DNA from: Auriscalpium vulgare
Lineage: Eukaryota > Basidiomycota > Agaricomycetes > Russulales > Auriscalpiaceae
Reading direction: 5' to 3'
Assembly: GCA_019915015.1 (NCBI GenBank)
Contig: JAHBBC010000001.1
Coordinates: forward strand, 62,001 to 126,000
Length of the DNA stretch: 64,000 bases
Shown: positions 6,821 to 62,620 of the stretch, piece after piece
Position numbering within the stretch: position 1 is the stretch's first letter
Layout of the letters: every line of letters begins with the position of its first letter
Notes under the pieces: generated by a model
Told to the model about the DNA's origin: nothing
The model's database searches: none
What the model saw: the letters and a program-made list of their open reading frames with translations, nothing else
Program-made: the position numbers and the translations under genes

Positions 6821-8306
6821 TCAAAGAGTTCCATGGCGAGAATTTCTGCATGCCGTCGTTGAGTTGGTATGTCAGCGCGGGAGGTAATACAGATTGCGGC
6901 TGCGCCTGACGACTGTATGTGTCCGCGGGTGCCTCGATGCGGGCGCGCTGCACGAAGGGTATGGGCTGGTTCGCCAGTCCGCGGGCGCGCATCTGCGGTG
7001 TCGCTGCAGGGCACATTGGGTTGTTGCGACAGACATAACATCTTCAGCCGCGCGTTCAGGGAATGCACAAAGGTAGAACGTCGGGTGAAACTAGGCTGCG
7101 GCAGATTTACGAGCAGTAGGGGGAAGCGTGTGTTGAACAGCATGGTCGTGGGGCTGAGCACCGGTTTACCGGTTACAGCGCAGATCCTACATTCGAAGAA
7201 ACGATCAGGATTGCCTGTAGTATGAGCGCAGCACGCACCACGAGCCATGCCCAGAGATGGTGCCTCCGCTTGTCACGACCTGGAGATGTTCTTCGCCAGT
7301 TGCAGTTTTCACTTCAGATTCGTGCAGGCGATTTGTCGCCTGACCTCGGTCTGTCGGACTGGGCAAGAGTGATGTGCGAGGAGCACAAGCTGTGGAACGA
7401 AAGGATCGACCGCCGACCGTCGGAGGCGGAAGTAAAGGTAGCTGCGCTGCGATGCGGCGGGTGACTTGGTGCGAAGGGTCAGAATGATTGCTCAGCCTGC
7501 TCGGGCTAGCGACGTACCGGCGAGCGAGATGATCCTGGTGCCTGGGTGCGCAGGACAGCGTCACGGAGTGTTGTCCAGGCCGCGGGGATATGTCTGGAGA
7601 GGATGTTTCGGCCAACGGGAGGCGAAGTTGACATCACAGCGCGCTGCTGGATAGGGGGTCGTGTCGCGAAATTGCGGAAGACGGGCTTTGTTGGCGCGGG
7701 TTGGCGAATCGAGGTGGCAGCTGGGGAAGGGTTACGGTGCAGCACGAGGCGTTGGGACGACGATTTGGTCGCACAAAACCTAAACAAGAAGCGTCGTCAA
7801 GACTGCTCGAGTGTCAGCTGCAGAGGCAAGGCGACGTACCGGGATGTTATGCTGCGAGGAGTCTGCGTGCTTCGCTGGACGTGCAGCGATCTTGAGGTAG
7901 CGTGGGCGATCTGGTGTTCACAGAAAGCGCGACTGCGGCCATTCGGTGAGCGCGAGGTGGCGCTGAAGTGTTTCGTAGCAGTATTGGAATCAGCTATCGG
8001 GTATGTTTCGGGCATTGGAAGGGCGTCATGGAGTAGCGTATTGACGGGGGGCTGGCGGACCGAGTGGGCAGAGAACGGGGCATGCGTCGCGTGAAGGTGC
8101 TCTGTAGGCGGGTCGCGCGGGTCCAGCGCAGTTCCTACACGGAAGAGACATGGTCTGAACTACTCGAAGCGTGGGGTGGGCGACGTACCGGAATGCACAA
8201 GACATGACTTCTTCCCCGCCATGTAAAGCATCCTTCGAACGCGTCTGAACGACAAGAGCAGCGACGCCTGCATCCGCAGGCCATGAATCAAGGCTGCTGC
8301 CCCATC
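6820..8306 (-). pseudogene. R1 gene-like repeat, copy II (interrupted unit)
   Basis: Minus-strand copy of R1. Intron-like GTACGTCGC...CAG segments (for example near 7,805-7,840 and 7,500-7,520) separate exon-like blocks. Shared peptides with other copies include PVGRNILS...LRDAVLR (PIGRNIFS...LRDASLR in copy V) and an HLALTEWP-type segment (HLALTGWP in copy IV). A TTCGAATGTAG acceptor near 7,190-7,200 matches those at 52,207, 25,950 and 63,830. The copy stops exactly at 8,306, where the 12-kb element begins, and its continuation (segment A) resumes at 20,345. It is degenerate; the ancestral product is unknown. Confidence 0.6.
8301..8306. repeat. Left 6-bp target-site duplication
   Basis: CCCATC immediately left of the 12-kb element. 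It matches perfectly with 20,339-20,344. Confidence 0.85.
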
Positions 8307-8418
8307 TGTCGTTGACGGGACGTCCGAGGTTCGATTTTGATGCGCCCGGCTGATGCGCCCGGCTGACTTCGGCTATCACCGGCTCCGGCTCCGGCTCCGG
8401 CTCCGTCGGTCCGCTTCC
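8307..8418 (+). repeat. Left terminal inverted repeat
   Basis: Matches the reverse complement of 20,252-20,338. Positions 5-27 from the end are identical (GTTGACGGGACG... to GAGGTTCG). Further inward the match continues with TTTTGATGCG, CGGCTATCACCGG and GGTCCGCTTCC. This end is longer because a 13-bp block (GATGCGCCCGGCT) is duplicated and a GGCTCC repeat has expanded. Confidence 0.85.
8382..8406 (+). repeat. (GGCTCC)n microsatellite
   Basis: Four consecutive GGCTCC hexamers inside the left inverted repeat. The right repeat has only single CGGCTCCGC-type motifs at the matching place. Confidence 0.9.
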
Positions 8419-8937
8419 AACACGACTCGTCTGCGGTCTACCAGTCTACCAGTCGTCCTCCAAGTAGTCCTCCCGTACTACCACAGCATATGTACACATC
8501 ACATGAAGCCAGTCAAGCGCGCTGCCCTTTCCTTGACTGCCGTTGAGGCCCCCTTTCCCATTCTCAAGAACATGCCGCATCTCGGCAGTGCCATTGGCGC
8601 CACAACACAGCACCTGGCCGCACGCTTGCGAGACAGAAAGTATAGAGGATAGAGGGAGGGGAGCTGAGGGAAGAATGGTATCTTTGTGGCCAAGGTATGT
8701 TCCTCTCCATCGCCCTCTACAGTGCTGCGCGCCCGGCCACTGCCACCATAGGAGTCGTGCACATCTGTGACACTGCTTATCACCACGCTGCACGGTTCAA
8801 TATACATCAGGTTAGCCGTTGACGTCGCTTGAAGAGCTTGTCCATGCGCATATAACATCCAGGTTTTCCCAGTCGTCTGCTCGCCCTCCTGCCCTGCTAC
8901 ACCTGCTTCTTACTGGCCTGCAGGACTCGGAGCCGGC
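8419..8937 (+). promoter_or_regulatory. 5' region of the integrase gene
   Basis: No coding frame is supported. A possible leader intron runs from GTATGTTCC at about 8,695 to ATACATCAG at about 8,811. This is inference from splice-like signals only. Confidence 0.3.
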
Positions 8938-10556
8938 ATGCCCAATCCGTCGGGCAAGAATGGTCATGGAGCAAAGGACTGTGCGTTCTCCAAATATATT
9001 TTTCCACAGCGCCTTCAGCTCATCCTATTCATCAGATCCTCCCGATGAGCAGCTTCGTGTATCGCTGCTTGAATACCAACGTCTGGCCTTGACACGAGAA
9101 CAGAAATTGGCAAGGCTTATACAAGACCATGATCTGTCAATCAAGTAAGTTCAGCGGCACCATGCACCTAAATGGCAATGTTAACCAGTTGATACAATAG
9201 AAAGTCCTCTTTGCACAGCTTAGAGAGACGCCTTGACATTCCATCTGTGCGGAAGCCTCTCCCTGTTGAGGTTTCAACACAGGTAGTCCTTGATGAAGTC
9301 GACAGGGGTGGAGCGTCCGGGATGGCAGCAAATGGACCCCGATTTATCAAGGACAGGCTCAAGGACCAGGGAATTCTGATCCCCCGGTGCGTGAACTTGT
9401 CATATTGAAGCGGCCCATGTTACTCATCTCAATGGATTAGAGATAAAGTGCGCCAAATAATGCTTGATCATGATCCTGACGGGTTTGCTGCTCGTAATCC
9501 TGGCAAGCGTCCCACTGTTGCGCGTACACCTCTTACTTCTGCCGGGCCATTTCGTGAGATTTCAGGTGACGGTCATGAAAAACTGGGAGAGCAGGCACTT
9601 CGTATGGGAGGAATCGGTTTGCCAATCTATGGAATTAAGGACAAATTCACGTCCTATGTACTGCTGTTGCAGGTTGTACCCAACAGTCGCTCCCAAGAAG
9701 CACTCGGGCACCTCTATCTTGATCTTATTGAGCAGTATAAGGGTTTGTGTCACATTTGTACAGCTGCTTTGTTTTGCTTGCCTCTCATCTTCCTTGTCCT
9801 TTAGGCATCCCAGTTCAATTCACAACAGACAAAGGCACAGAGGTTGGAGTCATGTATGCAATTCAGTCAGCTCTAAGGCAAGTGATACTTATGAGCCATA
9901 CATTTGCTCTGTATTCACAATCTGAATTACAGGAGTACCTATGCTCCTGACCTTGATCCTGATGTTCATCCTGAGCATGTCTTTATCAAGAGTGTGCATA
10001 ACACTGTGATAGAAGGATTCTGGAGGTTCTTGAAAGAGAAACTTGGCCTCAGCTTAAAGGATCACATTCTTCGTGGGCTTAGTGAGCACTTGTTTGTACC
10101 CCACCTTCCATGGCATCCGTTGAGTCCCTCAGCTTCATTATTTTTATCAATCCTTGCTAACTCTGTTCTAGATTATTGTTCAACTGGATATTTCCTCCTC
10201 TTGTCCAAGCTGAACTCGATGAGTTCAAAACGTATTGGAACCAACATCGTATCCGGAAACAGAAAGAGAAAGAAATGCCATCTGGACATGTCCCTGAACA
10301 TGTTTTCAAGGACCCTGGACCATGGGCTGGTATCAATTGTCTAATTCCTGTGCCCTCTGAGGGTATTGCCCAGATGCGAGACATCATTACAGAGGATTAT
10401 GGCTGTAGAGAGAAATATCTGGATTGGGTTTCACCAGAATTTCATGTTCTGGCTTCACAGGCATATGAACACATTGGCTCACCAAATCTTACATTGAATA
10501 CTGCTTGGGATATTTTTAGCAGGATGTCTACAGTTCTTAGGGATCATTACCAGTAG
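8938..10556 (+). CDS. rve-type integrase/transposase (DDE), 7 exons
   Basis: Predicted 418 aa. Exons: 8,938-8,980; 9,036-9,144; 9,201-9,386; 9,441-9,742; 9,805-9,877; 9,933-10,091; 10,172-10,556. Every junction keeps frame. Intron 5 uses a GC donor (GCAAGT). Catalytic core of the retroviral integrase (RNase H-like) superfamily: GDGHEKL (D156), FTTDKGTEVG (D222) and HNTVIEGFWRFLKEKLG (E265), so the last two acids are about 42 residues apart instead of 35. The N-terminal 110 residues are charged and helical-looking (LLEYQRLALTREQKLARL), a likely DNA-binding region; no HHCC zinc finger is visible. The C-terminal part (NWIFPPLVQAELDEFKTYWNQHRIRKQK) is typical of the family. It is the likely mobilisation enzyme of the 12-kb element. 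The start ATG gives a compact protein; an upstream start cannot be excluded. A host-domesticated role is the main alternative. Confidence 0.85.
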
Positions 10557-10699
10557 TATTCATGTGCCTTCATCTATCATACTGCCTTGAGTATCTTGTG
10601 GTTGGATTTTGAATTCAAATGCCTCAAAGTGATTTGACAAGTCAGAATTGATGACATTGAATGCTCATAGTACCACAGCTTTACTATCCTGTAAGTAGT

Positions 10700-13218
10700 T
10701 CACCTAGCTTTGGTAGTAGCTAATGCATGAGTTATTACATTTGCCCTAGACCATTGGCCATTTTGAGCATGGCGCTTGGCATGGGTTTTCCAGCTGGCAG
10801 GCTTCTCAACCCCTAGTCTGCCAAGAGAGGTTCCATGATAATCCCTTGCAGCATTCCATATCCAATGTGCATTTTCTTCTAGCTGAACAATCAACTTGAA
10901 ATCAGCATAGATGAAATTGCTTTCATCATCTTTGATCTATCAAAGTGTTAAAGGACTAATATTGTCTAGGTTTCACATTGCATACCTTGTCAGAGCGGGA
11001 TGACACCCAACCCATTGTTACAGTGTCGTCATTGTCCAAATGCATGGGAGCTGCATATGCAAATGATGCAAAGGAACTAGTGTCTGGATAGCCAAATCTG
11101 TTGATCAGATTTGCCTTTCTTGCAACAGCCTGGAAATGTTCTCATCCAGTTGACAACAATATTTATTATATCACTGACCATTTGCTCCTCTGCAAAGTGG
11201 GGCATGAAGCCCTCTAAAATGCAATAGTTATGACCTTGAACAACTAGTTGACAAGAATGTGAATTCTTGTTAGATGTCAGTAAAGGTAAACTTACTATCT
11301 TTATTTGCCTCCATCTGCAATCGAAACAATGTTTGCTCTTTGAGCTTGGCCTTTGTACTTTCTCTTGCATTTACCCCAGGCTCTGCAACATTGAGGAGAG
11401 GTGTGTCTCTTATACCTGCTGTACTGTGTTTGCCAAGCCCACTCTTCACCATTGAGCCCGTGTCATTCATGCCGCGCTTGAGCTTCTCACGAGTCCTAGA
11501 TCAGCCATAATAAATGATTAGTCTCATGGTCTGTTATATTGACCATTAAGACTCACTGAATAAATTCAACCTCAGCCCTAGCAGCCATGGCAACATGCTT
11601 CTGATCAATTTCTGAAGCCACAGCTGTGAGCTGGTCTGCATGATATATTATAGCCCCAAACTGAAATAAAGCATGAGCAAGAAAGCACTCTGAAATTCAT
11701 AAAGCTTACAATATCCTTTTCCTCTATTTTTCCTCCTTGCAGGCCAGCACTGTCATAGAGAATAAGAGATACCATGCCAGCATCTTTTGGAGGCTTCACA
11801 ATTTTCTGCCATCCTGGGTCTTCAGGTACAACCACAGTCTCCTCCTTTGTGATAGCCTTTGTTTGAAGCCCCTTTTCAAATATATCAAGGCTTTCAACAA
11901 TATGTTTCCTCTTTAAGTTATCCAAATCTTTGTCTGGTACTCTTAGATAAAATGAATCAGTCTGAAATGTCACTTAGAAAGTTCTACCCATACCTTTTGC
12001 AAGGAACAAATATTGCATTCTGATATGCTTGTTCTCCAAGCACATGATATAAATGCAACTGCCTAGCTTGTGCTCTTGAGTACTCTGCAGCTTCAATAAG
12101 CTCCTTTGATATATCCTTGATTTGTGTATATGCTTGAGTCTTAATTGCTTGTCTCTTGATGTGTATCATATTGAGAAACATAGAGTGTATCTGCCTTTGA
12201 AAGGTTTTCAAAGCAGCTGAGTCCATGACTTGAAGCTAGGAACAAGATGCATCAGACCATGTTTTATGTCCTGGTGAAAATGTTTACTGAGGTGTAAAGT
12301 GGTCCAACTTTGTAGCCCTGAAAAATTACATGCATTTAGCTTTAAGCCTCAGATAGAGTAGTCAGAAAATTCACAGCTGAATATATTTGCTGATCTGCTT
12401 CAATATGGTTCTTCTGCCTGTTACAAAGGCGAACCAGAGATGGGAAGAAGCATTCATGATAAAATGAATAAGGGGTGATGAGAGATATTTTGGCTCTTTC
12501 AACAGCTTCAAGATCTACTGCTGGCCACTCAGAAGCTATAGCTTGGAGGATCTTTTGAACCCCTTTTTTGTACTCCCCAGGAACCTCAGGACTTTTTTGA
12601 GTCTGCTTGGTGTTGAAGAAGGTCCTCTCAAAGGTAGGCTTAATGAGAGGGTCACCAGGAAGCTTGAATTTATTGTCCAGGGTCCTCTCCAAGACTTGCA
12701 AAGCAAATATTAGCAAAAGGCCAAGATTACATTCAAAATCAATTCTGACCTGAGTGAACCTCTGTCTCAGAAAAGTCTTCAATAGGCAACATATTCTCCT
12801 CATCTAAGAATCCAATGCTGTTTAGTCAGAATATCAAGCAGTGGAAGATACAACTGACTGCTAGATGTGTCCCCTACTTGTATTAAGTACTGTCATGATC
12901 ACTGGTGATGGAAAGCAGATCAGACCACATACCAGCCACCTCTGGTCCCTGCTGATCATAGGCCAGGAGAGCTTCATTGTGCTCAAGATCGGGGAGAGAT
13001 GGATGGTTCCAGAGAGGTGTTGCATCAGAGATGTCACCAGCCTCTTCATCTATTCCACCCGCCTCCTCCAGCCCTGTTACATCACCATTTGGGTTTGAAG
13101 CCATGTCCTGAAGAGAGAAAGAGCGCAAAGCTCGATCTAAGATCTCGTGGGCCGTGTCCAAGCTGGCTGTGCGAGCACGTTTCATGGCAGTCGAGTCTGA
13201 GGAGGTGTGTGACACCAT
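10700..13218 (-). CDS. Element-borne protein of unknown function, 11 exons
   Basis: Predicted 651 aa. Exons: 12,891-13,218; 12,750-12,803; 12,375-12,694; 12,288-12,317; 11,994-12,235; 11,710-11,941; 11,557-11,660; 11,296-11,495; 11,179-11,243; 10,986-11,129; 10,700-10,936. All junctions are GT-AG and keep frame. An alternative start is the ATG 11 codons later (MKRARTASLD). The N-terminus is acidic; the middle has long charged helices. C-terminal residues about 526-651 contain HLD (H555, D557), a run SNFIYADFKLIVQLEENAHW, then DYHGTSLGR (H607, R613). The HxD...H...R order and the strand pattern recall Fe(II)/2-oxoglutarate dioxygenases (double-stranded beta-helix), but this is inference from spacing alone. 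It converges on the integrase gene with 143 bp between stops and shares its low GC, so it probably belongs to the same element. Confidence 0.75.
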
Positions 13219-13249
13219 CTGGTCACATCGTGATGTAACAGTCGTGGGT

Positions 13250-16200
13250 GTACGCGTGTCTTCTCACCACCACCTCTCATGCTCGTTTGCTGTTCGAATT
13301 CGTCTCGAGACGTATCATTCCCATCCTGACACCGTATCACTTGTACCTAAGTGCCAACTTGGGGCGGCCCAACGGATTCGACACTTCGGTGGCGACCAGG
13401 GTGCTTCCCAGACTGGGTGTCAGTTATGTGTTATGCCGTCCTCGGAGTTTTCGAGAGCATTCTTGTGTGCTTCCCTATATTATCTGCCACCTTGTCCTGC
13501 TCATAACCATGCTGCTCCCTCCTCAACCACGGAACATCCTCGATTGGCCTGCCTGACAGGTGAGTTTTATCTAAAGTTTCTACAAGCTACTTTCATATTT
13601 ACGGCGCTGCCTCGATCAGTCGCATGAGCTGTCTGTCGTATTCGTTGAGCTCGTCGTGAAGATGCATTGTCACGTCTTGCGACGTTACTACGTGGCAGCG
13701 CGCGGGCGCCGCATAGTTTCTTCCCTTGACGACCTCTGCCACCGACTCCAAGCCATCTACCTCGACACTGCGCCAATGCGCGCCGTCACGCCTCGGCGCT
13801 CAAAAGCGCCAGCACATCGCGACGCGCTCGACGACGTAGTGCGTACCACCGCCACGTCACCGCGCTCAACAGTGCCAGCGCATCAACATGCGCTCGACGA
13901 CGTGCCGCGCGCCGACGCCACGTCATTGCGCCTAGCCGCGCGTGCTCGAGGAGATGAGAAGGTGGAGAAGCGGGAGGAAGGAGAGAGGAGACGAGGCCGA
14001 GGAGCAGGCATCCCGCGGTGCCTCCCCTTCCCCATCCCGGAACCCTCCCCCGCACTCATCGCCCCCACCACCACCCTACCGCGCCCCCCATGCCCACGAC
14101 CGCGCCTATTGCGTCACTTTAGCACGCGGCACGCTTCAACGCGCCCGTCTCTGCAGCATGCGTGCCCACTGCACCCACTCGACGCGCCCGTCAACACTGC
14201 GTCTCCGTGCGCCGCCCCGACACCGGCCGGTGTACTTTCGCAGCAGCGTTGCCGCGCTGTCGCCGCCCCCACGCTGGTGCTGGTCCCCGTGCAGGCCACG
14301 ACCACGCAGGCCAGCACACCACAACCCCGCGCCGCCGTTGCACGCACGCCCGCGCACCCACTCTACACGAACCTGAGCATGGTCTGCGACGACGGAGAAG
14401 GCGTGCAGGATGCACGGGTCGAGGTTGAGGAGGCGACGGGACGGACCGAGCGCAGAGCCTCGCCAGCGGTGACCAGCGATGCGTGCGCCAGTGTCGCGGT
14501 CGAGGCAAAACGACCCTATCGTAAGTATCGCGTCGACGTGCAGCAGCGCACGACGTGCTCACCCGCTTCATGCACAGATGGTTTCCGTTCGAGCGCGGAC
14601 GTCCCTGAGCATCGAGACCGTGTGCGACTCGTTGCAAGCTCGACCACATCGACTTGTTCCTTATCCACACGTCGACCGCGATGCCGCGCCCGCAGTGCCG
14701 TTCCTGCGCGCTGACACCGCTACGTAGCCCTCCCTCTGTACTAGCGCTGCATCTCAACCGCTCGATGCATCACGGCGCGTACGCTACCAGAAACACACGT
14801 CGCCTTGCCTTCCCCGAATTCCTCGATCTGACGCCCTTCACCACCTCCGGAAAGCTCTCAACCACCCCGTCTCTCCCCATCTCGAGCACGCCCGCGCTGC
14901 TACCCCGCTCAACTACCCCCACACCCGCCGCCTACCCGACCCCGCGCGTGCTTTACCCCCTCGCTGCCGTCGTGTGCCACTATGGGCAGCACTCCTTCGG
15001 GCCCCCCATGCTCGGGCCCGCGCGCTTCACGCCACCCCGTGTCCGCCACTTCGTCAGCTGCGAATGCGAAGTGTGTGAGCTGCTCAGGCGCCCCCACCTC
15101 AGCGTGGCCGCGCCGACATCGTCCCCACACCGGCGTCCCCGACAGGCGGGCTGGACGCTGCTGTGCCGAGTGCGCGGGCCGTCATCGCTGCCGTCGTCCC
15201 GTCATCGCCGCTGTCGTCGTCGCGGCACCATGCACACATCGCCCGCAGCGAGCACCGGCAGCACGCCGTCCCGCCGGTGCCGCTCGCCGCATGCGAGCCT
15301 CGACAATGCCCCCGCGCTCCGCAGCCCCCTGTACGACGGGCTGCGCAAGATCGCCGGGCACGCACGCTGGATGAGCGCATAGCAAGACGATCAACGTACC
15401 TCGCTGGACACCTCGCAGGCCACCTCGACGCTCCTGGACAACAACACCTCACGGTCGCGAGCAGCTCGAATGGCCGCGCTGAAAACGTATGGACGATGCG
15501 CGGTATGTACGTACTTTTCGACTGTTTCTCTTATCTCTTTGACTCACCTGGTTCACCTCTCAGTATGGATGCACCGTGGTGACCCTCTGGATGCCGGGCG
15601 GACGCCGCTCCTGCTTGCCTGGACGTCGTCCCGCCAGGCCGAGCGTTGCGTCCGCGCTCCAACGAGCATGGACGCCAGGCGCTGCGCGCATAGGTACGGA
15701 TGTCTCTACTTTGTTTCTCATGTCTTTGACTTACCTATCTGTCTTTCAGTCTTGCGCCATGTCACCGCTGGACGCTGCCCTGCAGCCCCTGGACAACGGC
15801 GCGCACGCAAGCCACGACAACGGCGCGCACGAGTGGAACAGCGCAAATGACGCGCAGCAAGACGTCGCTGCAAAGACGAGCGAGAGGTCGCGCGTGGTTC
15901 GCTCCAGCTCAACATCGTGGCGGGCTAGGCATATGCACGGCATACACGGCCTGCTCGCGAGACAACGGCGGCGCGGTGGAGGGAATCAAGGCGACAGAGG
16001 AGGAGGGGAGAAGCAGAACGAGCGGGTGACAGACAACGACGGCGGCTCACCAAGCGTGGAGTCGTGGGCGGTGTGGCACAGGCCAGGGCGGGGACCGGAG
16101 AACGGACTGCTCGGACTATGCACGCATCGAGCGCATGGACGGGCAGCGCGTCGGGGTACCCGCGAGCGAGATCGTAAGGGCGAGGCCAAGAGCAAGAGGC

Positions 16201-16900
16201 GCCGTTGCGCGGATCCGCCGCTGCCTGGCATGGCCCCCTCGACACCTCGCGTGGCATGGTAGCAGGGTGCGCACGCCCACGCCGGCCATCAAGACCGCAA
16301 CCCGTGCTGACACGTGTCGGGCGTGCACCTTCGGGTGTTGGCGCCGCTCACTGCCACCTCCTGCGCAAGTTGCCTATAAGCGTCCAAGTCTTGCAACACG
16401 CGCGCATTTCGGCTCTGCCATCGCCGACTCTAGATAGTGCGCGGCGGCGGGCGAGGTGGACGGCGGTGAGGAGGAACAAAGGAATGGAGGACCGTGGCGT
16501 GCATGGATGTATGGTAGTGTCGGAATATATGTGCAGAAAGTGAACATACCGAGCGCGGGGGGTTTCTTGTACTGTAATGCAGCAAGGCATGAGCAGAGAA
16601 GGTACAGCTAAAGCCAGCTAAGCAGCCTCGCACCTTGGGCTGTATAAAACAGCTACAGCGCATGCGGTGAGATTGCCGCAAGACGACCTAGCACACCTGC
16701 CAATGCAGCGTGAGGCATGTCTCCTGGCGCGCAGTCGCGGTGTGGGTAGTTGGTGTTTATGCACAGAGCAGATCACAAGCAAAATGACCATTGAATGATT
16801 AATGTAATATATAAACAACGCTCCTGCTGGCCTGATAACCAACGTGAGGCAGCGGGAGGATTAGGTACATAGCAATGTATGAAGTAATATGATGAGATGG
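13250..16900. other. GC-rich island inside the 12-kb element, unknown
   Basis: A sharp rise in GC relative to both neighbouring element genes. A plus-strand frame at 13,656-14,714 (352 codons, rich in Ala, Pro, Arg) and another at 14,654-15,382 are open, but overlapping frames on both strands are open too, so length alone is no proof. Intron-like pairs exist: GTACGTACTT near 15,510 to CTCTCAG near 15,564, and GTACGGATGT near 15,692 to CTTTCAG near 15,750. Either a nested insertion, a further cargo gene with GC-rich exons, or decayed sequence. I recognise no domain. Confidence 0.4.
13787..13935 (+). repeat. About 67-bp tandem repeat, 2.2 units
   Basis: Two diverged units, each with CGCTCAA, GCGCCAGC/GTGCCAGC, ATGCGCTCGACGACGT-type and CGCCACGTCA blocks, plus the start of a third unit. 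Confidence 0.6.
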
Positions 16901-16966
16901 AATACCGGAGATCTAGAGAATGAGTGTGTTTGAATGAGTGATGGGCAGGACACATTGTGCATGCAT

Positions 16967-19512
16967 TTAAGACTCCTCTGCGTCATCGTGATCGCTGTCG
17001 GAGTCAGCGGGGTGTATGTGTTCCATAGGCTGGGCTGCAGAGCCGCCCAAGCTATCAAAGTCAAGCTTCTTGCAGATATTGTTGCAGATGTGGTCTCGGA
17101 GATATGTATTGATGCCTTCCTGTCCGAAGTCGCCCACGCCAGATTGTCTTTCAGACCAATGTCAGCCTCCATTCACAATTTTGACAAGGTTACCGACATA
17201 CCCTTCCTTTGTATGGGTCATGTTGTCGAAAAGAACAAAACCATCGACGCCGCTACTGCCGGGTCCATTCGGAATCTGACACTGTGTCCCTGATATTTCA
17301 TTAACATGTGCGCAAACCGGGCACTTTATCACAAAACCCACCCTGGAGATCTGCAAGAACGAGTTCCTTGTTGCTGGCCAAGTAGACAAAGTGGGAGAAG
17401 GCGCGGATGGTTGTGAACAGAAGCCCGGTCTGAGTCGCGGTGTGGTTGAGCGTGCCACTGATGCGGGTCACCGATGTCGGGCGTTGCTTTTCAATGAGCC
17501 AGCTCCATCCTTCATCTATGTTAGGCTCACTCTGCCCGGAAGCAAGTGACGGCTTTGTCTGCTGTTCCTTCCCAATCCACGCATCCGCAAATTTGATATC
17601 TACATGGCTGTCAGCTATCTGCATAAGTCATATGTGGGGGCTAGACTTACTCCGGTCCACATGAACATGATTGGCCTTTGCGTGCTCGTAGAATTTGCAT
17701 AGGAACCACTGGCCGAGGACAAGTCGCCGAAGCTCAGCTTCTAAGTTGCTTCTGTTGTCTTGCACTGAAACAGCTTCACCATTAGCTGTAAGGCGAAAGA
17801 ATTTCTTGGCAACATATATTGCGCCGTCTGATGCAGAAAGCTATAGTCAATAATTCTGTTAGCAGATGCAAATCAAAAGTACAAAGCAAATGCTCACAAT
17901 ATATGCCTTCTTCATCGCACCTTCCGCAAAGTGCATATCACGAATATGACCTTTAACCGTGATGTCACGGTCTTCAAGTTGCGTCTCGCCGTCCAATTGG
18001 GATGCAACACAGTCAAGGCGTTCCAGGGTCACAACACTGCGCGTGTGAACAGTCGCACCGCCTTGGGCCAAGGTGCGTGAGCTGAACATAGAGGCGAATG
18101 CAGATCCTACGATAGACTCAGTGGCCGAAAGGAACAGATTTCAGATAAATAAGACTAACCCGAGCTAGCAGCTCGGCGTTGACGCTTGAAATCTGCCATC
18201 TCTGACTTGGATAGCAGTTGCTCGCTGACTCCGCGCTTTCGCTTCATGCCATTGAGTGCTGACTGAATCTCACTTGATCCACGTATGCGTTCGTCGATGT
18301 CGAGATCATCCCCTTGTTCGCCGCGAGTACGCAGTTCATACTAGTGGCATTAATTACTTCATTAGTTAAAGTCAAGTACGCTCAGAGAATATAAGACGTA
18401 CTGCTTTGACATCCACATATACGTCAAATACCAGCAATGCCTTCTTTGCGAGGTGTTTGTAGTTCGACGGCACTTTGGCGAGGTAGATAGGGTACCGGCT
18501 AGGCTCGGAATAGTGTGCATGGAACTCGCCTACGGTAATCGTCGATGTGTTTGGTTCAAAAGTGCGATTATCGGTGAACCGGAATGACACTTCTTCCCTG
18601 AAATACAGATAAGTAGAGTGATGTAAATGGATGAGCATGACGGCTCACGGCATCAGCGGCTCCTCGTGGGGTTTCCCATCGTGAGGGTGCCGCTGCCACT
18701 CAATATTCAAGTGTTCAACGATACTCGTCTTGATGTCTGCTCGCTCTCAGAAAATAAGTTGTCAAAGGGTTAGATATAACACACCAGGCAAATGCTTTGA
18801 CGACCCCCACGGCTGCGCAGCACCTCCATACTCCAGCTTTATTGTCTTCGGACAGCTACTCAAGCGGACCTGCATGGGTACATAGAAGTCAGAGACTAGC
18901 GATCTGATGAAATAGGCCCGTGCTCACCTGCCATGCTACAACGATTTGTGGTTCTCCTGGAGCGCCATCACCCCGCTCCTGACGGATGAGACTTGCACTG
19001 GTCATCTTGGTGGTAGGATTGCCGTTACCAAGGCGATTCTTGTAGTCCTTTGCACGGATGCCCAAGGTTTGAGGCACTGGTGCAACCGTCCTGGACGGTG
19101 TCAGCACTACGGCTTTGTACATGCTATCAGTCAGACACTGACAATGTGTGCCAACGGTAAAGCTTAGAAAACATACCTGCTGAAGCTGTAGTATCTGTGC
19201 TCTCGTGAGTCCCAGTGACGCCTTGCAAGCACGACTGACACGCATGAGGCATATCGGGGAAAGGTCGAGTCATGTTACGCCGCGTAACCCCGCACAATGA
19301 ACACTGCGGCCAGCTCTGTGGAATAGCCATGAGTTAGATGGATACCATGAAGGACTTATACGCACAGCAATATTCTTGTACTCGTCGGACTCAAGTGGAT
19401 GAGCGGCCAGCTTGGTGCACTTCATGCATGTCCCGGTGCCTTCTCGCCGAGGAAAAGACAGCCCACAGTCCTCACATTGATCGGCAGTTGCTGAGGCGGA
19501 TGGATCTGCCAT
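16967..19512 (-). CDS. Alpha-type protein kinase, 12 exons
   Basis: Predicted 653 aa. Exons: 19,366-19,512; 19,177-19,315; 18,928-19,112; 18,785-18,869; 18,649-18,736; 18,402-18,597; 18,160-18,340; 17,898-18,106; 17,651-17,840; 17,342-17,614; 17,202-17,289; 16,967-17,147. All junctions are GT-AG and keep frame. N-terminus: two paired CxxC motifs (C13/C16 with C29/C32; C54/C57 with C75/C78), probably zinc-binding. Kinase domain about 330-625: IYVAKKFF (ATP-binding lysine region), SHFVYLASNKELVLADLQG (the conserved LxxDLQG segment), FDNMTHTKEG, then GVGDFGQEG and HICNNIC (glycine-rich and zinc-coordinating C-terminal signature). Such kinases (MHCK/eEF2K class) phosphorylate serine/threonine, often in helices; the substrate is unknown. 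An upstream ATG at 19,575 is possible. No damage was found, which supports recent activity or selection. Confidence 0.9.
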
Positions 19513-20251
19513 CCTGGCGGATGGTCCAGGCGGAGGGGGAAAGCGACGCTGCTGAGTGGAGAGAGAAATGCGCACCTTTATATGGTCTTGAAGAGATCAC
19601 TAACGCCGCTGGCAAGATTTAACACCGAGCCTAAAGGTCCATTCATATCTAGTCAAAATATCTAAGCGTTGTTACACGAGGCAAGGTGCATGCGGAGCCA
19701 CGGGGACGATGCACAAGGCCTATCCCACAATACTCTGCATGCCCGTCTTCAGCCAGAGGTGTCACTGCATGCCCTCGACAAAAAGACCTACAGGGCATCC
19801 ACCCATATTGCGCCAACCAATGACAATGAATTTCTGCGCAATCCTATGTGGGGATCCAGCCGACGCCAGTGCTTGCGTGACGGCTCCCGTCGCCTAGATC
19901 CCACCGAGTGTTTTGTCGCGCCCTGTTCGGCCAAGCAAAAGGTCTCTCAGGGTATCCATGAAGATCACTTGATAGGTGGTGCGGACGTGCATGAGACGGT
20001 AGTGAGCGAAGTCTACGCAAAGCAACTCGCCGACGACTCTGATCGGAGGAACGGCCCGCCTCCGAGCCGCTGGCAAGCACGTGACGGTTCGGCGCTACGG
20101 CACCGCCATCCGCGTGCCTGCCACTATGCAGGTGGCTTCAACTGTGCTCAACTTGAAGGCCCGTATCATGTCTTTTCTGAGGTATTATATTACATAGTGA
20201 GCATGGTATAGGGAGGAGGAGAGTACAGGAAGGCTTGCTGGTGCCGTGCCC
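19513..20251. promoter_or_regulatory. 5' region of the alpha-kinase gene
   Basis: Lies between the kinase start and the right inverted repeat. No gene is supported. The frames present (for example 19,669-20,211 on the plus strand) lack motifs. Confidence 0.4.
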
Positions 20252-20338
20252 GGAAGCGGACCAGCGGAGCCGATGGCCGGTGATAGCCGAGGCCAGCTGG
20301 CCGCATCAAAACGAACCTCGGACGTCCCGTCAACCGTA
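20252..20338 (-). repeat. Right terminal inverted repeat
   Basis: Read on the minus strand it begins TACGGTTGACGGGACG and follows the left repeat through TTTTGATGCG, CTCGGCTATCACCGG and GGTCCGCTTCC. It lacks the 13-bp internal duplication of the left end. Confidence 0.85.
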
Positions 20339-20344
20339 CCCATC
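20339..20344. repeat. Right 6-bp target-site duplication
   Basis: CCCATC immediately right of the element. Perfect match to 8,301-8,306. Confidence 0.85.
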
Positions 20345-25639: not shown

Positions 25640-26720
25640 CCGTCCGTCCTGGGAGCCCTCGGCTGATCGCGCGAACGCAGCCAGGGAGATTTTGAATCGG
25701 CTATAGGCCTGCGCATATATTTGTTGAAGGGCGAGCCCAGGCGTGCGGCGAGCAGCCAGGGTGACGCACCGGAAAACGGGTTGACCTCGCGGAGGTGATG
25801 TCAGGTTTGCCGGCGACGTTGGCGTGGGAAGTGAGCCAGAGCTGCCTGGGTTGACGGGGGTGTGGCCTGACGTGAGGTGCGAGCGTCGGAGCACCGACGG
25901 GGACGCGTGCGTTGCGCCAACATTTGTTCACCGGTGGAGCGCGAAACCTACATTTGAAGAGAAGGATCAGCATCGCTGGAGTGTAAGAGAGTGAGCAACG
26001 CGCCACGATGTCAGGCCCAGAAGCAGTGACTCTGATCGTTCGGACTTTTGTTCTTCGCCTGTCGTGGAGAGCAAGCGATTTTTGATCTCGCAGGCCCTTG
26101 AACTCGGAGTGGCGTCGCGGTCTTTGGTCCTAGGAACGTTTCGGCCATTATCGACGGAGGCGAGCGCTGGGCGCCGTGTCGATGACGAAGGAGCCTGCGC
26201 TGGTGCTGTTGGATCGGGTCGGTAGATCGAGGTGACAGTGACAGATGGGGAAGCGTATGCTGCAGCACAAGCGCGAGGGAAATCGTCCGCTTGGGCAGTA
26301 GAAATCCTGAACAAGGCGACAAAACAAGACAAGCGTCGTCAGTGACGCTCAGGCGTGAGATGGCGGGCGACATACCAGGACGTCACGACGCTTCAGCAGT
26401 CTTTTCGTTCCTCGGTAGACGTGCAGCGATTGCGAGGGCGTCTGGTGCTCACGGAAGGCGCGATTTCAGCCATGCGGGAGTGCGAGGTGACGCCATGGTG
26501 TGTCGTAGTTGCGAGAAGCTAATGATTGGTTTGGGAGTATCTCGGCCACTGGAAGGGCGTCGGATGATGGCGGGGCGAGTAGACGGGGCTGGAAGACCGG
26601 GGTGGGTAGCTGGGGCAGAGAGCGGGGCGTCCGTCCAGTCAAGGCGCTCCATAGACGTGTTGCGCGGTGTCAGCGAGGACCTACGTGGATATAACCTGGT
26701 TAAAACTACTCGTAGGAGAA
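25640..26720 (-). pseudogene. R1 gene-like repeat, copy III
   Basis: Minus-strand copy. The acceptor CTTCAAATGTAG near 25,955 precedes FRAPPVNKC (FYIAPVYKC in copy IV). A GGCCGAAACGTTCC block near 26,140 matches the GGCCGAAACAT blocks of copies II, IV and V. A GGAAGGGCGTC...GACGGGGCTGG...GGTCAGCG-type stretch (26,550-26,690) matches 1,660-1,760, 8,010-8,090 and 29,080-29,190. Frames are broken. There is no segment A beyond 26,720, where unit P copy 3 begins. Confidence 0.5.
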
Positions 26721-28980: not shown

Positions 28981-29660
28981 CGTCGGCGTCCGCTGGCACC
29001 CACACGTGACGCCGTCGCGTCCCTGCTTGTGTTTTGTGGTAAGACCAATGTTACGAATAGGGAAAATTTCGGCCACTAAAAGGGCGTCATATGGCGGCAG
29101 ACCGGGGTGGGCAGCTGGGTTAGAGACCGGGGCTTGCGTCAATTCAAGCCGCTCGGTAGGCGTGCTGCGCGGGGTCAGCGCAGACCTACGGGTCAATAAC
29201 ATGGTCAGGACGACTCCAGTATGAGATCATGTGGTGGGCGACGTACCGGGATGCCCGAAAGTTCACAAAACATGACTTCTCCCCGCCATGTAGATCACCG
29301 TCCTTCCGGAGCCTTGGAACGATCTGGTTCTGCAGGGACCGACGACCGTGGCGAGACAGCTGCACCCTTAGGTCATGCAGAGATGCCGCTGGACCACGAG
29401 ATGTCCAGCGTTTGGTCTGTGAAGGTCCTGAAGGAGGTTGTCGAGTGTTAGCTGTTGGACATTAATGGACTCGATGGATGACGTGGCGATGCACCAGAGA
29501 TCCCTTGGGCCGGACAGGCTAGCAATATCGGGCGTATATAGCGGCCATGATACTACGATGGTCAGTCGTATGGCGAAAGTACGGATGGGATGGGACGTGG
29601 TAGTGTGTCGAGCCGCAGCGCGCGGCGAATCTCCGGCGAACTTAGAGCGTGTGATTTTTT
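28980..29660. repeat. R1 fragment (-) and segment A (+) of unit copy IIIb
   Basis: R1 fragment 29,050-29,400: TTTCGGCCACTAAAAGGGCGTC, GGGGTGGGCAGCTGGG, GGCGACGTACCGGGATG and CCCCGCCATGTA, all shared with 8,010-8,260. Segment A 29,406-29,660: CCAGCGTTTGGTCTGTGAAGG, GACGTGGCGATGCACCAGAG, CGGCGAATCTCCGGCGAA. The unit is interrupted at about 29,700 and resumes at about 33,005. Confidence 0.65.
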
Positions 29661-39099: not shown

Positions 39100-39689
39100 T
39101 TGGTACTATACATTGTCGGCAGCACGGCAGCAGGCCACGAACCCATACCGTGCACACGTTGCAACGTCGCTTTCGGCCCAAGGCTCATGTAACCGCCACC
39201 CACGACAGATCTACGAGGCCATCCGATCACTAGCACGTAGGATACGATGAGGTTGGGATGCCACATACTAGGACGATGAGACGCGCCGAACGCGACCTCG
39301 AAGTCGCAAGCCAAACCCATCGCGCGTGAGCTTTCTCCCATGGCAGCCACTCATAGTCGGATGGATTATCACCAGCACCATGGAAGCCCCGAGTCTCCCC
39401 AGAGCGACACCTGGAGCACGCAGCAAGGGTTTCTACGCTCTGGGATATATTGATGCTGCGAAAACTAAGAACGCGAGGCGCTGCACGTCGTGGGGCTGTA
39501 ATAAAACGATGAGCGTGAGGTGCGGAATTTCGGCAAGTAGACACACTATACGCGTGCCCGCTACGCATTAGAGGCCACCACATCATGCCACGAAAACGTG
39601 GAAATCAATGGATGCCGTGCGCCGACATGACCCCAACGTATACGTTCGAGTCGCTGCAGTCGTGGGCTCCAGAAGCTACGTAAATCCGC
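39100..39689. other. Intergenic up to the gypsy insertion
   Basis: No gene supported. It ends at the left flank of the LTR element. Confidence 0.4.
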
Positions 39690-40974
39690 TGTGGAGGTGC
39701 CGCGTGCCTTGCTCGCGGACACCGCCAGGTAGAGAGGCGGGACGAGCGCACCGGCGAATGCCGACGCTGACGACGTAGACGCGCGCTGAGCGCGCACTGA
39801 CAGCATCATATCTTCTTTAGGCCCGCACCATTCTCACCCTCGAACCATCGCCACGTCAACGCCAACCGTGCTCGCAAAACCCCCTTCCCCACCTCCTCTC
39901 TCGACACCAGCCATCCAGAGGCCCAAGAACGCACGCCTACGCGCCACGCAAGACGCAGCACAGCCACGGAGCCGAATAGCTGGGTAGTAGCTTCAGGAGG
40001 GCGGGCAGGAGCGAGTACGGGCGACGACACCTCCCTTCTCCCTTTTCCGTTCGACTTACGACCTTCCTTTCATTCTCAATACTGTACCCGGCGCTGATTC
40101 GTTCACCCCAGGCCTCTGACACCACTCCCCTTTTCCATACGACGATTCGAGTCCCTCCCCTCTCTCGAGTATTCCTTTCGCCGACACTCCGAGACCTCCC
40201 GTGATCCGACCGCGTCGGGGACGACTCCGCCGCCGCCGCATCGTACGAGCCGGGTCTGGGCCACCTGCGCTCCTCTGTTGGGGGACAGAGTCCGATAGCG
40301 CGCGCGCGAGCGTACGTCTAAATAGAGTCGGTCCCGGGCGCGCGAAGAGAGCGAGCTCGTCGAGGAGGCGAGGCATTCGTACTATACGCCCCGCCACCCA
40401 TTTCCATCGAGCCCGATTTCTCCGCGACGCACCACATGGACTGACAGAATTTGCCTCCGTTGTTTCACTTTCCTATTGCCACCATCACTTCCCCTCGCGT
40501 TTATCTCTTAGCATCACTTGTTATCGATGGCCCGGCGGCGCGAGAGCACGCGCAGCGTCGCGGCATCTATCCGTCACATATACTGGCGACACCTCGCCGT
40601 CGAATGGATCCATCTTACCACCTCCGAGCCACTACGAGCCTGAGCCGCGCCTTAAGCCCGATCGAGCCCCCTTCCTCTTCTTTCTTCGCCTCTCCCGTCA
40701 TCTCCTGATTCGCAGCTAGCTTCCCCGGCTCGTGCGCCTCTCGTACGCCCCGAAACCGCTCGGCGAAGCCTTCCCAAAGACATCAGCCACTTCAAAACTC
40801 GACCGCGCAACGCCAGCAAAGTGCTCCTCAACTCCGTGGATCTCTAGCTGCGTTGTTCTCTAGGAGGCTCCTGTCGCTGACAATCCCGTCTACTTTCTAG
40901 ACTACCGCTATCGACGCGCCCCCGGTCTCTCGACCCATCGACTCGCCCGCCTGCAACCGCTCGTTTCTTCCACA
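39690..40974 (+). repeat. 5' LTR of the gypsy element
   Basis: 1,285 bp, TGTGG...CCACA. Frames inside are not genes: they recur identically in the 3' LTR. Confidence 0.93.
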
Positions 40975-40975
40975 G

Positions 40976-40993
40976 TGGTGACCACCGCAGGGG
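40976..40993 (+). promoter_or_regulatory. Candidate primer-binding site
   Basis: TGGTGACCACCGCAGGGG starts two bases after the 5' LTR; TGG is the usual first triplet (complement of tRNA CCA). I cannot name the tRNA. Confidence 0.4.
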
Positions 40994-41084
40994 ATTTCAA
41001 ATTGGGTTTTCCGAAGAACCTTTCGTCGACAAAAAGCTACGTAGTCTCCTTCCCTTCCGTTAACTCATATCTCCTTCCAGACCC

Positions 41085-42818
41085 ATGTCTCCTGGTGGCG
41101 CGTCCAACCCCGGAGGCGGCACGAACCCCGGCAGCGGCGGCGGAGGCAGCGGATCCAACCCCGGCAGCGGCGGATCCAACCCCGGCGGCGGCGGATCCAA
41201 CCCCGGCGGCGGCGGCACGAACACCGGCGGTACCGCGCCGCCCCCGCAAGTTATCTACGCCAGGCACATGCCGATACCGCGGACATCCAGCGCGCCCTCG
41301 TTCAATGGTAAGTATGTCAGTGACTTTCTTGTCTTACTCCAGCAGCACGGTCGTGCCGCCGGCCTTACCGACAACGAGCTGGCCACACGCATCTACCAAT
41401 ATTGCTCCGATGAGGTCAAGGATGTCATACGGTACTGCAACGAGTTCAAGACGCCGGACTGGGCCGCCGCGACCACGCTCCTCAAGGGACTCTACGGCGC
41501 AAGCGACGAACCCGTCGCCGTGTCGATAGCCGCCTTCCAGCTCTTCTGCAAGCAACACGCCGAACGTGCGCGGTTCTCCACGAGGTTAAGTGCGGAGCTG
41601 TACCATCGCAAATTCCTTTCCATGTCCGCGCAGCTGCGTTCCAAGGGGTTGCTGACTGACGTAGAACAAAAGCTATGGTTCTATCGTGGCCTACCCCGTG
41701 AGGCGCGCGTCTATGTTACTGATCATATGGACACGCAGTATCTAACCATTACGAACCCGCCCCCAATGGCCGACGTCCTCGCGCTCGTGAACCGCGCTTT
41801 CGACCCCAACAGCATCGAGGCGTGGGGAAACGACATCCGACTTGAAGACGACGACCTGGACGCCGACACCGACCTGTTCGCCGCTCCCAAGAAGAACGTA
41901 CGCTTCGACACTACGACCGTAGCCGGCGCCGAGCCCCTGGATCCTCAGCAGCACCTCGCCAAGAACGCAGCGGCGCCGAACGCCCCTACGGCGTCGAGCT
42001 CAGCCGACGTTGACGCTATCACGCGTCGTCTAGAGGAACTCAGCATCAGTCTGGCGCAACTCCGCTCGCTTCAAGCCTCGGGAGGCGCAACTGCAGGGTT
42101 GCAAGGTAACGCTACACCTGCGAGCGGCGCTAATGTCTCAGATAAGCAGGATTTTCCTAGGCGGTGCTTCATGTGCGGACAGACAGGAACGCACCGCCTC
42201 CACATACGCCACTGTCCCGAGACCGCAAGCCTCGTCGAAGCAGGACTCGTATTGCACAACTACGAGCGCAACCGGTACGTACTTCCCGACGGCTCCGACC
42301 TTCCGCAGGCTCCGTACGGCGACCTGGCCAACTACATCCGACGCCTGGCGAGCCTGGGTAAGATCACGCCTGCGACAGCAGCGAAGACGATGACACGCGA
42401 CCCGCCCCCGCATCAAGTGGCGTCCACGTCCAGTGTCGGACTCGTTGTCGGCGACCACGACATCCTGCAAGGCGAAATGTACGCACTGGCGGCGCGCGAA
42501 GACGTCCCGAGAGCATCGTTCTACATTGACGCGGACTATACCGTGCATCCCGTGACACGGTCAGGCAAGGATACCTCCGCGCGTGACAAGTCCGCGCCGT
42601 ACGCGCGCTCCAAGCCTCAAGATACGTCCACGCCGCCGCAGGTACGCCCGGTAATCCGCCCGCACACTCACAGCCGCCGCGCGCCAGCCCGCAGGCACCT
42701 CAGACGAAGACAGCAGCACCCCCAAACATCGTACCGCCCGGTGCGCCGCAGCCACCGGTCATCAACACGCAGAACCCTTCGCGCAAGACCGGCGCGGACA
42801 AAGGTGATGTTGTCATGA
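41085..42818 (+). CDS. gag polyprotein of the gypsy element
   Basis: The ATG at 41,085 opens 577 codons. Residues 1-50 are a Gly/Asn/Ser-rich tail with GGGGSNP-type repeats. About 60-300 is the capsid-like helical region (FLVLLQQHGRAAGLTDNELATRIYQYC, YHRKFLSMSAQLRSKGLL). About 360-380 is a CCHC-like knuckle (CFMCGQTGTHRLHIRHC). The true protein sequence in this frame seems to end near 42,641: after that this frame is Arg-rich, while the frame one base earlier reads as a Pro/Gln linker continuous with the protease. The nominal stop is at 42,816-42,818. Either one base has been lost near 42,641, or a frameshift or splice joins the two frames. Confidence 0.85.
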   Translation: MSPGGASNPGGGTNPGSGGGGSGSNPGSGGSNPGGGGSNPGGGGTNTGGTAPPPQVIYARHMPIPRTSSAPSFNGKYVSDFLVLLQQHGRAAGLTDNELATRIYQYCSDEVKDVIRYCNEFKTPDWAAATTLLKGLYGASDEPVAVSIAAFQLFCKQHAERARFSTRLSAELYHRKFLSMSAQLRSKGLLTDVEQKLWFYRGLPREARVYVTDHMDTQYLTITNPPPMADVLALVNRAFDPNSIEAWGNDIRLEDDDLDADTDLFAAPKKNVRFDTTTVAGAEPLDPQQHLAKNAAAPNAPTASSSADVDAITRRLEELSISLAQLRSLQASGGATAGLQGNATPASGANVSDKQDFPRRCFMCGQTGTHRLHIRHCPETASLVEAGLVLHNYERNRYVLPDGSDLPQAPYGDLANYIRRLASLGKITPATAAKTMTRDPPPHQVASTSSVGLVVGDHDILQGEMYALAAREDVPRASFYIDADYTVHPVTRSGKDTSARDKSAPYARSKPQDTSTPPQVRPVIRPHTHSRRAPARRHLRRRQQHPQTSYRPVRRSHRSSTRRTLRARPARTKVMLS

Positions 42819-43732
42819 AGGACGCTGAACGCAGGGCCCCGCAGTATCACTTCACGTCCGACATACAAGAGCAGATATCCTTGGAGAAGATCGAGAAGAC
42901 GATATGGGACCAGCCCATCACGTTGCCGCTGCGCGAGCTCGTCGGTGTGTCCGCCCTTCTCCAGAAGCGCATCGCAGAAGTGACAAAGACGCGTCGGGAG
43001 TATGTTACAGCTACTGGTGAGTACGAGCTGTACTCGCCCGAGGCTGAACGTCTGTTGTCAGAGCAGGCGGACTACGCCGTGGTGGCGCCGGGATCGCAGC
43101 TGACCGTCGACGAACCCCGAGAACTCGAAGATTTCCTGGTCGCACATTCCAACGCGTTGTCCATACGCCCGGTACGTTACTTTGCAATGACAACCGGGGT
43201 CTTCACCGCAGCGATGGCGGGCAAGGGCGTCACGCTCATGGTCGACACGGGCTCGGAACTCAACTTAATTCCCGAACGCCTGGTCTCGACGCTCGGGCTT
43301 CCCCTGGACTACGACGGGTCGAGGTGGGCTCTTAAGGGAGTGCACGGCGACGCAGTGCGCCTACTCGGGTGCTGCAAGGACGTTGACTTGAGTATTGGTG
43401 GCCATCCGTTTGACCATCACTTCTTTGTTTCTAGCACAGATCCGGGCGGCAAGTTCGACGTTATCCTGGGTCAGCCGTGGATCCAGTACTTTGCGGCGCG
43501 CATTGATTACGAGCGGCAGGGTATGGTAATCACGCTCTGGAAGAACGGCGACCGGAGCGAAAAGCCCACGTTATCGCTGACCCTGACTAACCCGCAGAAC
43601 GAGCGCAACGCTGACCGGCTGCCGAGTAACAACAACGCGCACGCGCACTCAACGTCGGCGAGATGGCCACCGACGGAGCCAACGACGCGCCGCAGCGCAT
43701 GGGTCGAAGAGATATCTGACGAGGATTTTTGA
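42642..43732 (+). CDS. Linker and aspartic protease of the gypsy element
   Basis: This frame is open from about 42,587; I start it where it first looks like protein. An ATG at 42,815 overlaps the gag stop (ATGA). It covers a Pro-rich linker, then a helical stretch, then the aspartic protease with LMVDTGSELNLIP (active-site Asp codon at 43,243), and a QPWIQYF block. It ends DEDF then TGA at 43,730-43,732. The gag-to-protease relation is a change of -1, and the step to the next frame is also -1. Expression is either as a gag fusion (if the frame break is damage) or by re-initiation. Confidence 0.75.
43726..43732 (+). promoter_or_regulatory. Candidate -1 frameshift site
   Basis: GAT TTT TGA in the protease frame: a run of five T directly before the stop. 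A one-base backward slip on TTT lets reading continue TTG ACA GCT into the 1,456-codon pol frame, which has no ATG near its start. Confidence 0.55.
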
Positions 43733-48099: not shown

Positions 48100-48256
48100 G
48101 GCGAGAGAAAGTCCTCTATGATATGTTTCTTTTCCTTATTTCTGTTTCTGTTTCTTTCGAGCCGTTCTTTCTCTTTATTTCATCCGAGTCTTCCGTCTCT
48201 TCTGACCTTTCCTAGTCTGGCCCGATGTCGGGGTCGACATCGAAACTCCCCCCCAC

Positions 48257-50879: not shown

Positions 50880-51060
50880 CCTGCATACGACCGACCACGC
50901 GAGGAATGCCATGATGCTAGCCTCTTCATGCGATTCTGCTAGCGTTTAGGACCCGAGAGATAGATCCCAAGAGATCTCTGGTGCGTCGCCACGTCGTCCA
51001 TCTTGCACCCCAGCTGACACTCGCAGAACTATCTCACAGATCAAATGCTGGAGAGCTCAT
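50880..51060 (-). repeat. Remaining part of segment A, unit copy IV
   Basis: CGACCGACCACGCGAGG, ATCTCTGGTGCGTCGCCACGTCGTCCAT and CAGCTGACACTCGC are shared with 62,445-62,575 and, inverted, with 2,040-2,150. Confidence 0.6.
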
Positions 51061-51090
51061 GGTGCAATAGCGTCGATTCATGACCTCGAG

Positions 51091-62339: not shown

Positions 62340-62620
62340 GGAGAGCAAACTCGGGGAAGTCGATTTCCCACGCTCGACACGTGCGCCGGAGAATCGCCGC
62401 AGGCTCTGACTTGCATACGACACCCATCCTCTCGGTACGTCCAAATTACGACCGACTACGCGAGGGATTTCATAGTGCTACCGTCTCATGCAGCTCTGCA
62501 GGCGTCTCGGACCCTATGGATCACTGGTGCGTCGCCACGTCGTCCATCTGGCGCCCCAGCTGACACTCGCGAACTCATTTCACAGATCGAACTCCGGAGA
62601 GCTGAGCGTCCATTCGTGAC
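62340..62620. promoter_or_regulatory. Segment A: shared 5' region of two divergent gene-like parts
   Basis: Lies between the membrane-protein start (62,308, minus) and the R1 ATG (62,627, plus). It is conserved in five copies, with GGCGATTCTCCGGCG (minus strand), GACGTGGCGACGCACCAG and GTGTCAGCTGGGG blocks. Conservation beyond the coding parts suggests either regulatory content or recent common descent of the units. Confidence 0.45.

Follow-up and report, generated by a model that had tools for sequence, protein, structure and literature searches.

The window analysed here is a 64,000-nucleotide stretch of the Auriscalpium vulgare genome (G000:C1:62001-126000; 51.6 Mb in 96 contigs). It holds a mobile element that carries an integrase-type transposase gene, a middle gene termed ORF2 and an alpha-kinase gene, and that is very probably an autonomous cut-and-paste DNA transposon of the IS3EU/GingerRoot type. 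Further copies of the element are named by the contig on which they lie. The borders and genes of the window copy are as follows.

8307..20338, plus strand: whole element, 12,032 bp, its ends set by ten elements that agree in their ends and are flanked by perfect 6-bp duplications
8301..8306, no strand: left target duplication CCCATC, read from the sequence
20339..20344, no strand: right target duplication CCCATC, read from the sequence
8307..8418, plus strand: left terminal inverted repeat, starting TGTCG; imperfect, inner limit approximate
20227..20338, minus strand: right terminal inverted repeat, reading TACGG.. on the minus strand; inner limit approximate
8960..10556, plus strand: transposase (integrase-type DDE), 438 amino acids, 6 exons
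8960-9144, 9201-9386, 9441-9742, 9805-9877 (GC donor), 9933-10118 and 10172-10556, plus strand: transposase exons of the gene model
10700..13104, minus strand: ORF2, 599 amino acids, 11 exons, with HxD (H503, D505), H555 and R561; putative divergent TET-like Fe(II)/2-oxoglutarate dioxygenase
16967..19512, minus strand: alpha-kinase, 646 amino acids, 12 exons; CxxC pairs lie close to the N-terminus, and the stop codon is taken from the sequence itself

The left end of the element reads 5'-TGTCGTTGACGGGACG.. and the right end, on the reverse strand, 5'-TACGGTTGACGGGACG... Both ends share the 23-mer GTTGACGGGACGTCCGAGGTTCG as an exact inverted repeat within a longer imperfect one, and across copies the imperfect inverted repeats between left and right ends extend over approximately 60-170 bp. 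An earlier note on this DNA had proposed a mobile element with precise ends at 8307-20338, and the 23-mer repeat and the CCCATC duplication place its borders exactly to the base. When the flanks of the window copy are joined, they align over the junction with 1963-2167 (67%) and 51101-50975 (72%) of the window, each time with an 8-bp gap beside the junction. The first of these alignments includes the uninterrupted target relative that the note had pointed out, which is a diverged repeat. Relatives of the target sequence in the window, at 1963-2167, 26613-26715, 29122-29306, 50975-51101 and 62410-62603, form a diverged repeat family.

The whole genome was then searched with the 23-mer, allowing up to 3 mismatches, with the reversed 23-mer as a control. 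This search returned 29 matches in 51.6 Mb compared with 0 for the control, and 20 of the 29 form ten pairs, which delimit elements between 2.9 and 23.6 kb long. Each of the ten is flanked by a perfect 6-bp duplication, with a different duplicated sequence each time (probability by chance of ten perfect duplications approximately 7.5e-37), and the end sequences are mixed in each of them, with TGTCG at one (left) end and TACGG at the other (right) end. All three genes are present in the same order in four elements (window, C27, C28 and C10). The other six are short, and tblastn at E 1e-4 detects neither the transposase gene nor ORF2 nor the kinase gene in them; among them, the gene-less C2, C5, C14, C24 and C8 elements (L040, L041, L045, L046, L038) are 3.0-5.7 kb long and share common ends, with large internal segments that are partly different. 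The earlier note had suggested searching the same genome for further copies and had made its reading depend on other loci with these ends around an integrase gene; the ten elements include three such loci besides the window. At the level of sequence it is demonstrated that the element inserts with a 6-bp stagger, that it has multiplied to many copies and that gene-less copies sharing its ends have moved in the past.

The C27 and C28 copies are 99.7% identical, and frames are open and splice sites conserved in both for all three genes, which bears out the earlier description of intact integrase, alpha-kinase and third genes (438, 646 and 599 amino acids). The C10 copy has the same three genes, with ORF2 interrupted by an 11.8-kb insertion and the kinase gene carrying a frame shift. 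The insertion itself (G000:C10:1270498-1282323; L042, L043) is of Helitron type, and its long open frame of 2323 amino acids contains DUF6570 and Helitron_like_N domains. Searches of the genome with the three proteins, performed exon by exon at E 1 for ORF2 and 0.01 for the transposase and kinase, gave matches confined to the four large elements at these thresholds; because the searches were run exon by exon, a strongly diverged gene elsewhere could escape them.

The remaining 9 of the 29 end matches have no partner at this threshold, and each was read individually. Their outer flanks are nearly alike in six cases (C8:1286929, C23:139541, C26:307186, C26:401272, C1:18273 and C10:569348; L016, L020, L022, L023, L029 and L026) and different in three (C33, C17 and C19). 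The common outer flank of the six is ..CAGTACACCAAYGTGCTA, which would fit a single end that was trapped inside another repeat and multiplied there.

The predicted catalytic residues of the transposase are D167, D233 and E276. Its first D lies at residue 167 with no cysteine before it, and the protein has no HHCC zinc motif. It matches the Pfam family PF24764 (rva_4, "Integrase core domain") at E 3.7e-8, above the cut-off; this match and the homologue search used an earlier 428-amino-acid model that misses part of exon 5. A total of 137 homologues were found at E <=1e-3, and the 120 listed are mostly from agaricomycete species, with a Bondarzewia mesenterica protein (60%) the best among the matches listed. 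A fold model of the homologue P0001, built with 42 others (43 of the 137 homologues used), has a predicted local distance difference test score (pLDDT) of 89.7, and its modelled core resembles retroviral integrases, IstA and TnsB. A search of viral contigs with the transposase alignment gave 113 pattern matches and zero confirmed relatives.

Placed by its features, the element most likely belongs to the IS3EU/GingerRoot superfamily and works in the same way. Complete IS3EU elements are described as always having TA..TA termini and usually a 6-bp duplication, and they are grouped with GingerRoot elements, which end in TA..TA or occasionally TG..CA (PMC10045372, available text). The element shares with this group the 6-bp duplication, the lack of an HHCC motif and a first D (167) within the 100-300 range; it differs in its TG..TA ends, which are neither TA..TA nor TG..CA. 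The closest likeness is to fungal IS3EU elements with 6-bp duplications in which a transposase gene and an oppositely oriented alpha-kinase gene flank a third gene (Kojima, 2025; PMC12730594). In the available text of that report, the third gene of all TET-bearing fungal IS3EU families is a TET/JBP gene located between the transposase and the alpha-kinase. Shared features are the 6-bp duplication, inverted repeats longer than 30 bp and the opposed transposase and alpha-kinase genes with a third gene between them, an arrangement seen here in all four large copies. The earlier statement that no described element has this combination therefore does not hold, since the report describes IS3EU elements with a transposase, a middle gene, an alpha-kinase and 6-bp duplications. 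It is also the only publication found, as far as the texts available go, that ties an alpha-kinase to a fungal transposon; the name IS3EU further occurs in a Ganoderma annotation (PMC8955403, available text).

The element also differs from these. The rust IS3EU termini are TAYGG..CCRTA, to which the right end TACGG fits and the left end TGTCG does not in any of the ten elements, and the middle gene falls below every TET/JBP cut-off. The host is of the mushroom type, a group from which the available text of that report gives no TET-bearing IS3EU; such families are reported there from rusts and Tuber indicum only, and from Russulales only Kyakuja is reported (PMC12730594). Since this is the reported range, an element from an agaricomycete that has mixed ends and another middle gene is new in detail, as far as that text extends, and it adds a mushroom-type genome to the rusts and the truffle from which the arrangement of transposase, middle gene and alpha-kinase is on record. 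Two observations weigh against the placement. First, the left end is TG rather than TA in 10/10 copies, compared with the TA..TA reported as invariable for IS3EU; the mixed TG/TA ends are relevant to how strict the recognition of termini by IS3EU-type transposases is. Second, the empty sites are diverged related repeats and not alleles. Empty allelic sites had been named beforehand as something to look for, and uninterrupted related sites were indeed found for the window copy and for the joined flanks of 3 of the 9 other copies (C8, C10 and C2; 73-79%), with no alleles among them.

ORF2 had been called unknown by the earlier note, and it matches no named family; what can be added is that it belongs to an unnamed agaricomycete family with homologues in other mushrooms. 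A search with the full-length protein gave zero matches because its search words were taken from the first 500 residues. With the C-terminal 160 residues (440-599) as the query, six agaricomycete homologues were found at E 2e-34 to 3e-64, in Rhodofomes, Antrodiella, Hohenbuehelia, Peniophora (two) and Dentipellis. A pattern H-x-D...H-G-T...R is kept in the 6 of 7 family sequences that reach this region, with 49-50 residues from D to H, and all six have HxD and not the PE-type HxE; the seventh sequence, P0126, is without the HxD stretch. A conserved arginine is a further feature of Fe(II)/2-oxoglutarate dioxygenases. Their iron ligands have been described as HxD...H (PMC12730594, available text). 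Among the six homologues, three give matches to the Tet-like oxygenase family PF20515, at E 0.017, 0.06 and 0.14; all are below the cut-off, and the best, in homologue P0125, scores 15.6 bits against the 27 required. The three weak matches span the HxD...H stretch, and each ends at profile position 209.

From these sequence features, ORF2 is somewhat more probably than otherwise a divergent TET-like Fe(II)/2-oxoglutarate dioxygenase. Its nearest competitor, given a little less credence, is that ORF2 is an accessory DNA-binding or assembly protein with no enzymatic activity, in which the dioxygenase motif is coincidental. Several results weigh against the enzyme and agree with such a protein. 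The window ORF2 has zero Pfam matches even at E 10 and reaches no Pfam cut-off, TET/JBP families included, and the matches of its homologues are sub-threshold and limited to three of the six. Sequence searches of the PDB with ORF2 and with its alignment matched nothing. The fold model of ORF2 has a pLDDT of 48, with the C-terminal part below 50, and is too poor to use; in this low-confidence model the long N-terminal part is predicted to be mostly helical. The genome holds 25 PF12851 (Tet_JBP) matches at E <=1, of which 11 lie above the family cut-off and 0 inside the studied elements. Twelve of the 25 were taken for a profile comparison and nine aligned, two of these being copies of a third. 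Comparison of ORF2 with the nine pieces by hhalign gave E 0.17 and 0.37, which is not significant given the shallow alignments and a value of 0.35 for the transposase control; the alignment is placed at the HxD, yet it is as weak as that of the control. A search of the same genome with PF20515 gave no match, but the controls were equally silent, which makes the result uninformative on absence. Against a non-enzymatic protein stand the agreement of the three weak matches on one Tet-like family, with the same end position over HxD...H, the conservation of H, D, H and R at a near-constant spacing, and the fact that TET/JBP genes occupy the same slot in rust IS3EU elements.

Divergence and selection were assessed by comparing the window element with the C28 copy, using introns as a control for coding constraint. 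The ratio of nonsynonymous to synonymous substitution (dN/dS) is 0.18 in the transposase (P 8e-19), 0.09 in ORF2 (P 0.002) and 0.26 in the kinase (P 1e-11), each below the neutral expectation. Purifying selection on all three coding sequences is evident from these ratios, with the point against it that the ORF2 value is based on only 8 differences. The three genes differ widely in overall divergence. Synonymous divergence is 0.34 for the transposase, 0.016 for ORF2 and 0.15 for the kinase, and intron identity is 81.4% (227/279), 99.3% (601/605) and 89.5% (531/593), respectively. Identity is complete over the 469 bp that precede ORF2 on its upstream side (469/469), and ORF2 with this upstream sequence forms the following segment.

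10699..13573, no strand: probable recently exchanged cassette; identity to the C28 copy at 2863/2875 aligned bases, with 6 gap columns

The cassette is 99.6% identical between the lineages, and its length differences amount to two of 3 bp, both in one ORF2 intron. Its edges are sharp (10,698 and 13,574), and the left edge lies no more than 2 bp from the ORF2 stop codon at 10,700, a position that comes from a single case and may be coincidence. The pattern argues strongly for a recent transfer of the ORF2 gene and its upstream region between two co-resident element lineages, via gene conversion or recombination. It is improbable that ORF2 is near-identical through extreme constraint or slow mutation with no exchange: its dN/dS is the lowest of the three, if only from those few differences, but its introns and upstream sequence are as identical as its exons and the edges of the segment are sharp. 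Divergence also differs between the kinase and transposase genes (P 1e-5 at synonymous sites, 0.001 in introns), a difference that may point to an earlier exchange or to unequal rates. With the recent transfer as the preferred reading, the two lineages of one family have exchanged sequence recently enough for the borders to be visible, one of them at the gene's stop codon, and the borders of one recent transfer can be read at base resolution. TET genes have been concluded to pass passively between transposon superfamilies, only one pair having more than 70% DNA identity (PMC12730594, available text). A bolder and tentative proposal, held with less confidence than the enzyme assignment itself, is that ORF2 may be a fourth, undescribed transposon-borne TET-like dioxygenase (not PU, AG or PE) that acts as an anti-silencing cassette, with the gene and its upstream region travelling together from one co-resident IS3EU lineage to another.

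The product of the alpha-kinase gene is, with high probability, a kinase. It matches PF02816 at E 1.5e-25 (90.8 bits against a cut-off of 21.3), aligns with myosin heavy chain kinase A (3lkm) over the C-terminal motifs and carries the alpha-kinase motifs DxQG, GxGxxG and HxCNxxC. PF02816 has four matches in the genome (E <=0.001), all within the four large elements. Between the kinase gene and ORF2 lies a spacer that includes captured host DNA.

13574..16706, no strand: G+C-rich spacer between ORF2 and the kinase, 3.1 kb; little conserved between the window and C28 copies, and made up partly of pieces present elsewhere in the genome
14698..15080, plus strand: captured ubiquitin carboxyl-terminal hydrolase gene fragment, 383 bp, 88% identical to G000:C6:1082862-1083273

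The C6 locus (1.083 Mb) is part of a longer hydrolase gene, with UCH matches at E 2.4e-18 in one open frame and, below the cut-off, at 0.0041 in another; the copy in the element has a 30-bp gap relative to it. The presence of this fragment in the spacer means that the element has captured host gene DNA. Further spacer pieces resemble loci on C38, C12 and C17, which gave no Pfam match in the open frames tested. Since capture does happen, the alpha-kinase and ORF2 might themselves be host genes caught once as passengers and useless to the element. This is a slim prospect, given that both genes are present in all four large copies with no genomic match elsewhere at the thresholds used, that both are under purifying selection between lineages and that rust IS3EU elements are likewise accompanied by an alpha-kinase. 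The alpha-kinase family is highly expanded in rusts (PMC4469406, available text); together with the rust IS3EU elements, this suggests that alpha-kinase expansions may be transposon cargo.

By analogy with known integrase-type DDE transposases, the transposase would bind the inverted repeats, cut or join the ends and integrate them at target positions staggered by 6 bp, and the six gene-less copies would be mobilised in trans. ORF2, if it is the divergent TET-like dioxygenase slightly favoured above, might oxidise methylated bases and thereby relieve host silencing of the element, a step that is less firm than the rest. The alpha-kinase would be a conserved accessory of the lineage, with a presumably regulatory role in phosphorylating some host or element protein. 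The ORF2 gene with its upstream region would have passed recently from one co-resident lineage to the other. Three copies with open frames, together with the gene-less relatives, provide material that can be assayed.

Other integrase-type systems were also compared. Styx of Zymoseptoria (PMC10853768, available text) is likewise a fungal element, with an IS3EU-linked transposase, a 6-bp duplication and a number of accessory genes, and it too has solo ends and copies whose length is atypical; it differs in its size of 7.9 kb and in its accessory domains (GATA, CCHC and DUF3577), an alpha-kinase not being named in that text. Ginger1 and Ginger2 (PMC2836005, available text) have an integrase-type transposase and TGT at one end in common with the element, and differ in their 4-bp duplications (5-bp for TDD-4/5) and in a zinc finger in the transposase. 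They were rejected on the 6-bp duplication in 10/10 elements and the absence of a cysteine before D167.

Polinton/Maverick elements combine a 6-bp duplication with an integrase, and their gene set comprises a family-B DNA polymerase, a packaging ATPase, a protease and a capsid protein. The duplication length and integrase are thus alike, whereas polymerase and capsid matches are missing here: Pfam searches that covered the three gene models plus ten more open frames gave no polymerase, ATPase, protease or capsid match. A Polinton was rejected on this gene content, and, within the reach of Pfam, the earlier note's reading against one stands. A Polinton/Maverick reduced by the loss of its replication and capsid genes would still account for the 6-bp duplication and the retroviral-type integrase core, but it is highly improbable given the lack of any Polinton gene match, a gene order equal to that of IS3EU and the same three genes in three further copies, which means that the element is not one decayed Polinton copy.

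Elsewhere in the window, positions 39686-48552 hold a Gypsy-type long terminal repeat retrotransposon whose two terminal 300-bp direct repeats are 100% identical and whose open frames match DUF4100, protease, reverse transcriptase, RNase H and integrase.

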